Part shown: positions 46,204 through 48,019 of the stretch, in pieces
Layout of the letters: every line of letters starts with the position of its first letter
Numbering within the stretch: position 1 is the first letter of the stretch
NCBI RefSeq assembly: GCF_001281485.1
Contig: NZ_CP012669.1
Location: 2,201,501 to 2,265,500 of the forward strand
Direction: 5' to 3'
DNA length: 64,000 bases
DNA from: Altererythrobacter epoxidivorans
GTDB taxonomy: Bacteria; Pseudomonadota; Alphaproteobacteria; Sphingomonadales; Sphingomonadaceae
The notes under the pieces: model-generated
Database searches by the model: none
Told to the model about the DNA's origin: nothing
The model's input: the letters and a program-made list of their open reading frames with translations, nothing else
Position numbers and translations under genes: made by a program

Positions 46204-46591
46204 GGATCATCCTTCCTTGGATCGATTGACGAGCCATCAGGATAATTTGCGGTCACAAAGCGTCGTTGATGCAAATCAATTTCGCAGCCGCGACAAGCGA
46301 AAGGCGAAAAAATTCCTGCCGCTTAAACCCTACTCGATGGAACACATGGAACACAGTCCAATGGGCCAAAAACCGTCGTTCTAATCCCATTCTGTCGTTT
46401 CCATACAAGAAATTACATAAAACCTGCGAGGGATTTACATTATATCGGACCCGGACAGAGTAGGACATGATTTCAATGCTCTATCGCCGGTAGGATTTTG
46501 TTAATTCCCCGGTCGTAGCGAATTCCTATCGATCCGGGTCGCTCGATATTTCCCAGACGCATAAAGCGCAGGGAACGAGGAGGACGAGAGG
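46204..46591. other. 388-bp AT-richer intergenic region
   Basis: It lies between ydcH (minus) and a small arginine-rich gene (plus). It holds a perfect FNR/FixK-type box at 46266-46279 and the duplicated short motif ATGGAACACA (46337-46346 and 46346-46355). A clearly lower GC stretch runs from 46240 to 46500. No supported ORF over 50 codons and no tRNA were seen in it. It probably carries the promoters of both flanking genes. Confidence 0.5.
46266..46279. promoter_or_regulatory. FNR/FixK-type anaerobox
   Basis: TTGATGCAAATCAA is a perfect TTGAT-N4-ATCAA palindrome, the consensus for FNR/FixK/CRP-type oxygen regulators. On the minus strand an AATTAT element (46242-46247) follows. That would put the box centre about 40 bp upstream of transcription start, the usual activating position, with ydcH as target. 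The plus-strand gene at 46592 is about 310 bp away. Confidence 0.6.
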
Positions 46592-46792: not shown

Positions 46793-47404
46793 ATGGGCAA
46801 GGTCATACCATTCAGGAAACGCACCAACTGGACCAAGGCAGACGCCTACGCCCTGCAATCGGGCAAGCGTCGCGGCGGTGGTGGGCCAAAGCCCCCGAGG
46901 AGCGGCGGCAGTGCCGCAAGGCTCGGCAGGATCGCCGCGATACTGGTGATTGCAGCCGTTATCCTGGTTTCGACCTGGTGGCAGGCCGACGAGATGTTCG
47001 GACCGCCCGAGGGATCGCAAGTCTCCCAGACATTCGGCATCTGCGGCGCGAAGGGCCGCGGCAGCTATTGCACCAGCGACGGCGACACGGTGACCATCGG
47101 TTATGGCAAGACGGCGCGGCGCATCCGCCTGACCGGCTATGACGCGCCCGAGATCGAGGGCGCCTGTCCCGCCGAAAGCGCCAAGGCGCAAGAGGCGGAG
47201 ACGGCGCTACGAAACTGGCTCAACGCAGGCCCTTTTGAATGGGATGGCGGCACGCAGCCCCCGCGCGACCAGTACGGGCGCGAGCTGCGCTATGCCTGGC
47301 GCACGGCGGCAGACGGTTCGGTCGAATACCTTGCCACCCACATGATCGACGCGGGCCTCGCCAGCGGCGATGGCTGGGGCCAGTCGGCCGACTGGTGCGG
47401 GTGA
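46793..47404 (+). CDS. Membrane-anchored staphylococcal-nuclease-like protein
   Basis: 203 residues. A basic cytoplasmic head (~45 residues), one membrane segment (IAAILVIAAVILVSTWW) and an SNase-like domain outside. The domain shows SDGDTVTIGYG (metal-site Asp), RIRLTGYDAPEIEG (R and E positions) and DQYGRELRYAW (the second Arg), ending in a Cys. The main catalytic positions of the thermonuclease fold are present, so it may be an active extracytoplasmic nuclease. An Excalibur-domain gene, a motif often linked to such nucleases, lies about 620 bp downstream on the other strand. Confidence 0.83.
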   Translation: MGKVIPFRKRTNWTKADAYALQSGKRRGGGGPKPPRSGGSAARLGRIAAILVIAAVILVSTWWQADEMFGPPEGSQVSQTFGICGAKGRGSYCTSDGDTVTIGYGKTARRIRLTGYDAPEIEGACPAESAKAQEAETALRNWLNAGPFEWDGGTQPPRDQYGRELRYAWRTAADGSVEYLATHMIDAGLASGDGWGQSADWCG

Positions 47405-47416
47405 GGGTTGGCGGCG

Positions 47417-48019
47417 ATGGGCAGCGTCAGACAGGTCGAGGTCTCGCCCGATAGCCTGCTCGCCCGATATGGCAGCGCGCAGGATTACCGCGACTGCTTC
47501 GCCCGCGAGGTTGCAGGCCATGTCACGCTCGAACAATTCATCGAGAGATTTTACTGCAGCGCGGCCTTCCGGCCCGAACGGATCGTGCTCGGCCTGATCG
47601 GTCGCGGGGCCAGCAATGCCGATGCCCGTGCCCTCGCCCGCGGAGAGACCGACAGATTCGCGGTGTGGGAAGTTGTCGAGCGGTCCGACCTGCCCTCAGG
47701 CAGCAAAGCGGTAGGGCATGAAAGACACGAAATCCTTTTACATTCGAAGGACACCGGCACTGCGAGTTGGTTGGCGGTGTCCTCAGGTAGCGCAGCGATA
47801 GGACAGACAGGAACGTCCTTAAGCAGTGGAGCGGTAGGACAGACAGGAACGTCCTCAAGTAGCGCAGCGGTAGGACAATCAAGAAATCCTGGCACGACGA
47901 CGCTCTATTTCGGAAGCTGGGTCGGCAACCTGGGCCAGAGCGGCTGGCGCTTCATGCAGCAGGCGCATGTCCTGTATTCGCGGGTGTTGCTGGAGAGTGC
48001 GGCGGACACTTTCCTCTAA
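47417..48019 (+). CDS. Uncharacterised protein interrupted by in-frame 36-bp repeats
   Basis: A 200-residue soluble protein. AREVAGHVTLEQFIERFYCS, GRGASNADARALARGETDRF and a C-terminal TLYFGSWVG...HVLYSRVLLESA look like one conserved small alphaproteobacterial family (DUF2867-like; I am not certain). Two stretches break the pattern: LPSGSKAVGHERH after VVER, and a Ser/Gly/Ala-rich 38-residue segment after SWLAV. Both are encoded by the 36-bp repeats at 47692-47727 and 47779-47886. All copies are multiples of three and in the same phase, so the gene remains open. ATG 47417 is used. Function is unknown. Confidence 0.65.
   Translation: MGSVRQVEVSPDSLLARYGSAQDYRDCFAREVAGHVTLEQFIERFYCSAAFRPERIVLGLIGRGASNADARALARGETDRFAVWEVVERSDLPSGSKAVGHERHEILLHSKDTGTASWLAVSSGSAAIGQTGTSLSSGAVGQTGTSSSSAAVGQSRNPGTTTLYFGSWVGNLGQSGWRFMQQAHVLYSRVLLESAADTFL
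47692..47727 (+). repeat. 36-bp palindromic repeat, copy A (diverged)
   Basis: It aligns with the three tandem copies at 47779-47886 at about 26 of 36 positions. The ends of the 26-bp core are GCCCT and AGGGC, where the other copies have GTCCT and AGGAC. The change at stem position 2 is compensated on the other arm. After the unit the sequence runs into GAAATCCT at 47729-47736, the same octamer that follows copy D. It lies within a coding gene, in frame. Confidence 0.7.
47779..47886 (+). repeat. Three tandem 36-bp palindromic repeats, copies B, C and D
   Basis: Units are 47779-47814, 47815-47850 and 47851-47886. Each has a 26-bp core from GTCCT to AGGAC and a 10-bp spacer (AGACAGGAAC in B and C). 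They encode VSSGSAAIGQTG-like 12-residue repeats. The array ends at GAAATCCT (47883-47890), overlapping the last unit. The length, palindromic core and in-frame insertion inside a gene recall Rickettsia palindromic elements, although the sequence is unrelated as far as I can tell. Confidence 0.8.

Follow-up and report, generated by a model that had tools for sequence, protein, structure and literature searches.

The locus raises the question of why a palindromic unit of 36 bp should occur four times, in frame, in one protein gene of Altererythrobacter epoxidivorans: is it a piece of protein multiplied on the spot, or a DNA element that entered the gene? The DNA analysed is a stretch of 64,000 nucleotides (contig NZ_CP012669.1, positions 2,201,501 to 2,265,500 of the forward strand), called the window here. 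We conclude that the unit is probably a small non-autonomous mobile element, composed of a hairpin and an A-rich tail, which survives in genes under a coding filter. This conclusion is carried by the dispersal of the unit, by filled and empty alleles, by the use of the same loops in scattered lineages, by a ceiling of 36n on the net gain in a carotenoid oxygenase, and by head-to-tail arrays. Table 1 lists the gene, its four copies, and the other places of the core in the genome.

Table 1. The host gene, the four copies of the repeat in it, and further places of the core (window positions unless contig positions are indicated)
Feature	Position	Strand	Basis
Host gene, DUF2867-like protein, 200 aa	47417..48019	+	ATG 47417 aligns with starts of many homologues
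Copy 1, 26-nt hairpin core GCC-CTCAGGCAGCAAAGCGGTAG-GGC, loop 1 (residues ~91-102)	47692..47717	+	Direct-repeat search
Tail/spacer of copy 1	47718..47727	+	Direct-repeat search
Copy 2, core GTC-CTCAGGTAGCGCAGCGATAG-GAC, first of tandem array, loop 2	47779..47804	+	
Tail of copy 2, AGACAGGAAC	47805..47814	+	
Copy 3, core GTC-CTTAAGCAGTGGAGCGGTAG-GAC	47815..47840	+	
Tail of copy 3, same 10 nt as tail of copy 2	47841-47850	+	
Copy 4, core GTC-CTCAAGTAGCGCAGCGGTAG-GAC	47851..47876	+	
Tail of copy 4, diverged	47877-47886	+	
Other genomic places of the core	contig positions 758686, 1504525, 1760228, 2414688		

A direct-repeat search recovered one family of four 36-nt units in the host gene, spaced by 87/36/36, in agreement with the earlier note on this DNA, which had described one lone copy (47692-47727) and three in tandem (47779-47886). 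Relative to the reference copy at 47779-47814, identity is 67% for 47692-47727 and 83% for both 47815-47850 and 47851-47886. A GTCCT...AGGAC core had been ascribed to each copy; this holds for the three array copies (stem GTCCT/AGGAC), whereas the lone copy has GCCCT...AGGGC, still a paired stem. The single reading phase was also described correctly: all four copies begin in the identical codon phase of the frame from ATG 47417 (the ORF list starts it at an upstream TTG, 47408), and the in-frame peptides are PSGSKAVGHERH for the lone copy and SSGSAAIGQTGT, SLSSGAVGQTGT, and SSSSAAVGQSRN for the array. The host protein of the window has no Pfam match above the cut-off and no match in PADLOC; PF11066 (DUF2867) gives weak matches in 12 of 59 aligned relatives (best E 0.0083), and a structure search with the host protein returned weak matches only, many with START/Bet v 1-like names (best E 0.05). 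The gene upstream (46793-47404, +) is SNase-like (PF00565, 18.2 bits, below the cut-off of 21). In an AlphaFold2 model made with 59 sequences (mean pLDDT 84.9), the loop 1 insert (residues 91-102) sits between beta strands 84-90 and 103-110 and the loop 2 insert (residues 124-159) between beta strands 115-123 and 160-169; ten-residue blocks in both inserts have pLDDT values of 53 to 72, as against 81 to 97 in most other blocks. The model predicts that both insert sites are turns joining neighbouring strands, and the loops of orthologues are mostly short, both in keeping with the suggested insertion into surface loops.

The unit itself is a 26-nt hairpin, N3-CTCAAGYAGCGNAGCGRTAG-N3', followed by an A-rich tail of ~10 nt. 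Three variable pairs and then C-G and T-A form a stem of 5 bp that closes an almost invariant loop, CAAGYAGCGNAGCGRT, and the A-rich stretch 3' of the stem reads approximately RAMAARAAMG. Among 122 copies, which like all copies were found under a mismatch limit on which the conservation figures are conditional, the outer pairs 1, 2, and 3 are Watson-Crick in 116, 108, and 101 cases, against 90.6, 39.8, and 77.1 expected under independence, and pairing is at background level from the fourth pair outward. The copies of viral contigs are alike (116, 111, and 108 of 121). Five stems prevail, namely GTC/GAC, GCC/GGC, GGC/GCC, GCG/CGC, and CGC/GCG. Covariation was scored on alignment A1, which contains 70 hand-chosen copies of 125 distinct 26-mers, most of the worst-matching ones being left out. 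In these 70 distinct copies 53 cells are changed on both sides of the stem, compared with 13.8 +/- 2.7 after shuffling (0 of 500 shuffles as high), and 96.3% of the cells are paired, compared with 83.4% in shuffles. Of the five measures two do not rise above the shuffles: the number of pairs altered on both sides, for which 326 of 500 shuffles are as high, and that of further pair types, for which 98 of 500 are. The near-fixed loop varies at position 5, at position 7 (C/T), at the free position 12 within GCGNAGC, and at position 17, and the G-N-A of the GCGNAGC triplet is present in 117 of 126 distinct copies. The DNA heptamer d(GCGNAGC) is an unusually stable mini-hairpin. The folding energy of the element's hairpin is ordinary, as DNA or as RNA (z -0.8 to -1.9), which does not support an unusual folding stability.

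A search of the window with a 22-base core (up to 3 mismatches) returned two of the four gene copies and nothing else, with 0.00 matches expected from 100 dinucleotide shuffles. Over the whole genome, two such searches combined returned the four gene copies and the four other places of Table 1, and the reversed core pattern had no match in this genome. The earlier note had counted a core restricted to this gene against a mobile repeat; besides the four further places, matches were found in 81 of 298 genomes of the family sample, in 37 of 96 genera, with at least two matches in 58 genomes. The reversed control gave at most one match per genome, in 20 genomes by count, and since this is similar to the 23 of 81 genomes with a single match, single-copy genomes prove little. 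Copies are most numerous in G223 (27), G260 (20), G016 and G158 (18 each), and G026 (17) of the family sample. In a class-wide sample of 240 genomes searched at 2 mismatches, 7 of the 237 genomes outside the family match: G414 with 66 copies in 1.7 Mb, G358 with 8, G591 with 7, G493 with 5, G454 with 3, and G558 and G523 with 1 each, the last two proving little since three genomes of this sample have one reversed-control match. Viral contigs contain the exact degenerate pattern in at least 120 stretches; the reversed degenerate pattern matches 1 and the reversed single form 0. None of 50,697 phage records matches at megablast sensitivity, and the 31 records of a plasmid search say little on the element because the query extended into the neighbouring gene. 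The element is spread over several families of the class, beyond the family of the window; the Erythrobacteraceae scope set by the earlier note is too narrow. The class is probably Alphaproteobacteria, judging by relatives of the gene that are named, such as Erythrobacter and Altererythrobacter.

A different sequence of 23 bases, GGACTGTGTTCCATGTGTTCCAT (window 46337-46359, -), occurs at 26 genomic places with up to 3 mismatches (reversed control 0). A GTAGGATTT-like box follows it in most of 20 places read, and it directly adjoins the hairpin repeat at three places (L003, L004, and L005). A common promoter or regulator site is one possible reading, a further repeat another.

Homologous loci were then compared for the presence of the insert. 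Of 120 listed orthologues of the host protein, 18 could not be parsed; 69 of the 102 parsed have no recognised insert in either loop, and the insert counts are low, as the insert patterns miss the window protein's loop-1 copy and one of its three loop-2 copies. The usual insert-free loops are 11 and 10 residues long vs 23 and 43 in the window protein. Most orthologues thus lack the blocks, whose presence there as conserved parts of the fold would, by the earlier note, have spoken against insertion. Copy 1 corresponds to a net gain of 12 residues (36 nt) relative to the orthologue P0004. P0002 and P0003, the closest relatives, share the loop-1 copy and lack the loop-2 array, and P0004 has neither, so that the three-copy array looks recent. 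Loop 1 of another locus (L012:3268-3390) holds a longer palindromic insert of ~120 nt, in frame, with hairpins and a tail GAACACAAAAAAC; parts of it are present in L045, L043, L044, L015, and L307, pieces of it repeat elsewhere, and a peptide of its kind (RPPAGPEGRGDRSADAL) was found in loop 1 of 12 of the 102 parsed orthologues.

For a carotenoid oxygenase in the window's genus, 57 loci were classified: 15 with the short element, 2 with a longer version, 4 with an unrelated gain of 12 nt, and 36 with nothing. The set comprises 57 of 59 fetched loci. Those fetched represent every one of the 58 genomes with a match except G338, together with G260 and G223, which were included as known to be filled; 15 of 55 are filled if both are excluded. 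In a tree of the 57 rows (17 filled), computed with the loop left out and having SH-aLRT support only, with 22 of 54 inner branches open, the filled/empty state needs at least 13 changes. On starred branches alone, 7 changes of the short form and 9 of the empty state are unavoidable, and the short form clusters hardly more than shuffled labels do (11 changes vs 13.4). Not all of the scattered filled alleles need reflect gains; loss or gene transfer could account for part of the pattern. Two loci stand outside the tree, L139, filled with two copies in frame, and L151, empty. The net gain of the short form is 15 to 108 nt, its divisibility by three being partly built in by a parser that requires an open frame. 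Exact gains of 36n were found in L100 and L120 (36 nt, n=1), L156 (72 nt, n=2), and L153 (108 nt, n=3), and none is larger. Many filled alleles gain less than 36n, and therefore insertion with deletion, or later trimming, must be added to the account. The longer hairpin version, CCTCAGGTAGCGGTTGCGAAGCACAGCC..GGCTGAACCGTTAGG, has a three-way-junction-like fold (L115, L149, L157, L158, and L159) and fills the same loop as the short element in two oxygenases (L115 and L149). It was rejected as a common parent: with up to 3 mismatches it is present in only 3 of 298 genomes, and is thus rare and not a general source.

Other genes give the same picture of filled loops next to empty ones. The PutA loop FATHNAYT–FQRLHGMGE is filled in G009, G226, G223, G026, G018, and G065 and in a partial locus of G082, and is empty in members of the same genera (G045 and G125; G121 and G041; G135). 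Here 54 of 55 loci were parsed, four of them included as known to be filled; among 50 loci taken best-scoring first, from 149 genomes with a match, 3 are filled. In the DASS transporter, GlyQ, and RimO, corresponding stretches of the protein are filled in more than one genome each. At L045 the element is nested in another repeat, which occurs without it in L012, L043, and L015; these comparison copies are not direct ancestors, and the net difference is +35 nt, not +36. No target-site duplication, and no terminal inverted repeat with a flanking direct repeat, was recognised in filled/empty comparisons read by eye. For the idea that the stem is copied from the target flank at insertion, these comparisons are too diverged to decide.

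Copies in genes were separated from the others by a crude codon score trained on the window, applied to 135 sites with 197 copies (oxygenase loci L098-L156 left out). In cellular genomes 27 sites were called coding, all in sense orientation, 24 of them in the frame xSSSEAVG and 3 in the frame LKQRSGS, in which the first or only copy has the GCG/CGC stem; on direct reading the element core is open in four of six frames. The host genes include those of PutA, carotenoid oxygenase, GlyQ, PheS, RimO, DASS transporter, DNA methylases, ArgC, and a cyclophilin-type protein, and orthologous sites in several genera are among the 27, so not all are independent. The remaining 108 sites were not called coding, and the window gene and a few others are wrongly among them. 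Tandem steps in coding sites are 36 (11 cases) or 39 (1 case), 12 of 12 being multiples of three, vs 31 to 39 elsewhere with 14 of 50 divisible by three (Fisher p 4e-6), where some spacings belong to low-scoring genes such as the window gene. Between genes of the cellular genomes no clear orientation bias was seen: unidirectional gaps have 30 copies in sense and 24 in antisense, convergent gaps 15, and divergent gaps 8, after 29 of 106 sites were dropped (missing neighbour or low-scoring overlapping ORF), and several of the 30 sense cases are one orthologous site. On viral contigs (L299-L378) the same caller assigned 21 of 100 sites to coding sequence, 10 in sense in the xSSSEAVG frame and 11 in antisense, and there are only two tandem steps, both of 34 nt. 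The coding filter (sense, single frame) is thus shown only for cellular genomes and is not supported by the viral contigs; the viral calls get limited weight, since the window served to train the caller and antisense frames rich in GC may also receive good scores.

Some copies outside genes have recurrent or conspicuous neighbours. In seven genomes (L019, L021, L028, L031, L040, L051, and L060) the element follows an ORF of ~464-488 aa and precedes one of ~145-149 aa, with differing stems, and some plasmid matches to this stretch are labelled DUF2256. Six viral contigs (L312, L316, L321, L332, L334, and L337) share one context, with the element immediately before an AAGGAGC that might serve as a ribosome-binding site. 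A tRNA gene directly follows one copy (L007:1536-1608), and another copy adjoins a 6S-RNA-like match just under the gathering score (L015:1537-1706).

Could the repeat be a feature of the protein? On such an account the Ser-rich blocks arose by local slippage and were kept as a useful linker peptide, and the likeness in DNA is codon habit. The same protein loops are indeed used repeatedly and the inserts are flexible in the AlphaFold2 model, but 108 of 135 sites were not called coding, even with the window gene and a few others among them, and the intergenic copies with intact stems refute the linker as the main account. In coding copies, third codon positions (1, 4, 10, 13, 16, and 19, the C/T position excepted) are changed in 5 of 276 cases, whereas codon position 2 of the Glu codon is changed in 16 of 46, and the variable positions are mostly the same in coding and other copies. 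Since coding and other copies vary alike and third codon positions are otherwise quiet, copying is placed at the DNA level, and the linker explanation is hardly credible. In our reading, the DNA sequence is what gets copied and the protein decides which copies persist. It is unlikely that the unit is instead a cis-acting RNA hairpin, protein-bound or regulatory, that is kept on transcripts and spread by duplication or recombination, with the coding copies as by-catch. The paired stem changes would suit an RNA, as would the C-G to U-G swap at columns 10/17 (40 and 29 of 70), the site shared by seven genomes, flanked by genes of the same two lengths and close to a small DUF2256-labelled gene, and the position before AAGGAGC in six viral contigs. 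Against it, a structure serving transcripts meets no clear strand preference between genes (30 sense, 24 antisense, 15 convergent, 8 divergent), and over the element in the 7 loci searched every Rfam family stays below its gathering score. Of five Rfam matches up to E 1 in these loci only the tRNA beside the L007 copy attains that score; a MIR529 match that spans the L007 copy is far under the gathering score and at chance level (E 0.39).

Two explanations accept mobility and differ in the machinery. A MITE of some IS, with the transposase acting in trans, would be palindromic, gene-less, and mobile by history, as the unit is, but in the filled/empty comparisons read by eye we saw no terminal inverted repeat with flanking direct repeat, and the A-rich tail is at one side only; we regard it as quite unlikely. 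Membership in the GTAG or CGTC REPs, moved by a RAYT or its descendants, is very unlikely. Size, alternative complementary stem residues, and the intragenic copies of E. lithoralis are REP features in the portion of PMC3733652 consulted, and the core contains the letters GTAG. Those letters do not form an unpaired end, however: their AG is matched by the CT of the 5' arm in all of the 70 chosen copies, and there is neither a CGTC end nor an AT-initial stem of 8-9 bp. Y1_Tnp genes (RAYT/IS200-type) were found in 39 of 298 genomes, 7 of the 81 that bear the element and 32 of the 217 others, which disfavours such a transposase as the mover; the window's genome, G260, G016, G026, G158, G065, and G002 have none, and G223, the richest genome of the family sample, has Y1 matches. 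A reverse transcriptase (PF00078) is rejected by its distribution, with matches in 19 of 81 genomes with the element and 71 of 217 without it; none was found in seven sampled genomes of the window's genus, and G158 and G002 have matches. Neither kind gave a match in the window's genome or in the copy-rich G260, G016, G026, and G065. A resident Y1 or reverse-transcriptase gene as mover does not fit the distribution, and no mobilising gene was found among these two families.

We therefore return to a mobile element filtered by the protein. Insertion would be blind to genes, and genic copies would survive where a hydrophilic block of 12 residues (Ser/Gly/Glu) extends a surface turn; arrays would grow or shrink afterwards by slippage. 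The hairpin may be recognised, as single-stranded DNA or RNA, by an enzyme acting in trans, which would take it from hairpin to insertion. More tentatively, the unit might form a class of its own among minimal mobile DNAs: an element of 36 bp with a fixed loop and a re-writable stem, whose enzyme reads the hairpin as single-stranded DNA or RNA, which enters a few preferred loops repeatedly, and whose machinery also moves longer A-tailed elements (the form with a ~46-nt core in L115/L149 and the ~120-nt type of L012); this is possible rather than probable. If it were so, these bacteria would change surface loops in steps of 12 residues. The in-frame entry of palindromes into protein genes has been a standing question since Rickettsia, an obligate intracellular bacterium. 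Here an element of much smaller size behaves comparably in other bacteria; one genus contains many filled and empty alleles, and the same loops of PutA, carotenoid oxygenase, DASS transporter, GlyQ, and RimO are entered repeatedly. With copy-rich beside copy-free species, filled and empty alleles, and repeated loops at hand, the mover, the target rule, and the cost to the protein become directly testable.

Comparison with known systems gives partial likenesses. The element core shares the sequence GCGNAGC, with its free middle base, with the GNA-triloop mini-hairpins d(GCGNAGC); these are known from chemistry and not as part of a mobile element, and for the fold in the native element they are only a lead. 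Cyanobacterial small dispersed repeats are very small (20-30 nt), mobile, and also found in genes; the element is alike in size class and in genic copies, and differs in phylum and sequence. Text searches of the literature with 'SSSEAVG' and with 15-base core stretches of both strands found nothing (sequences printed in figures would escape), and searches on palindromes of Erythrobacter or Sphingomonadales gave, among the titles listed, none that looks related to the element. A 2025 REP survey counts palindromes in Erythrobacter cryptus, and the part of it consulted has nothing on the element's sequence (PMC12306157).

As described in the consulted portion of the REP literature, the GTAG and CGTC super-families are short palindromes, often near gene ends, with alternative paired stem residues by sub-family; GTAG REPs carry an unpaired GTAG at one end and then a stem-loop, CGTC REPs have an unpaired CGTC (or TGTC/CCTC) end, an AT-initial stem of 8-9 bp, and a CCA tail, head-to-tail pairs are absent, under-represented, or negligible, and in E. 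lithoralis and S. alaskensis REPs also occur within tRNA synthetase and truB genes (PMC3733652; Di Nocera, 2013). The element likewise is short and palindromic and has alternative paired stem residues and intragenic copies. In contrast to these REPs it has no unpaired GTAG or CGTC end (the letters CCTC are present, with CCT in the paired stem), no AT-initial stem of 8-9 bp, and an A-rich tail; no stem-loop follows the GTAG letters in listed single copies, the units form head-to-tail arrays, and the gene distribution shows no RAYT link, with Y1_Tnp in 7 of 81 element-bearing genomes and not in the window's. Identity with a REP family of that source is unlikely. The 'undescribed' mobile repeat of the earlier note is accordingly, to judge by the text consulted and the searches, new as a sequence family, and not as a phenomenon, intragenic REPs of E. 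lithoralis being already in print (PMC3733652).

The closest likeness is to the Rickettsia palindromic elements (RPE), which in the parts of the reports consulted are in-frame palindromes in unrelated conserved genes, at sites compatible with function, with intergenic copies too (PMC2229807; PMC10969869) and a length of 105-146 bp (PMC2229807). Like RPE and Wolbachia palindromic elements, the element is in frame in unrelated protein genes (27 coding sites) and is also intergenic. The RPE likeness drawn in the earlier note is apt as a likeness of behaviour: the copies are in frame, lie in surface loops, and use one preferred frame in cellular genomes (24 of 27, with 3 in another and 0 antisense; on viral contigs 10 of 21, with 11 antisense). 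The element differs from RPE in having 36 nt and a 5-bp stem in place of 105-146 bp with a long stem-loop, in its head-to-tail arrays, in a conserved loop with a changing outer stem, in its A-rich tail, and in its hosts, which are non-Rickettsiales bacteria and viral contigs. By these comparisons with the published descriptions consulted, it works like an RPE and is set apart from the GTAG and CGTC REPs.
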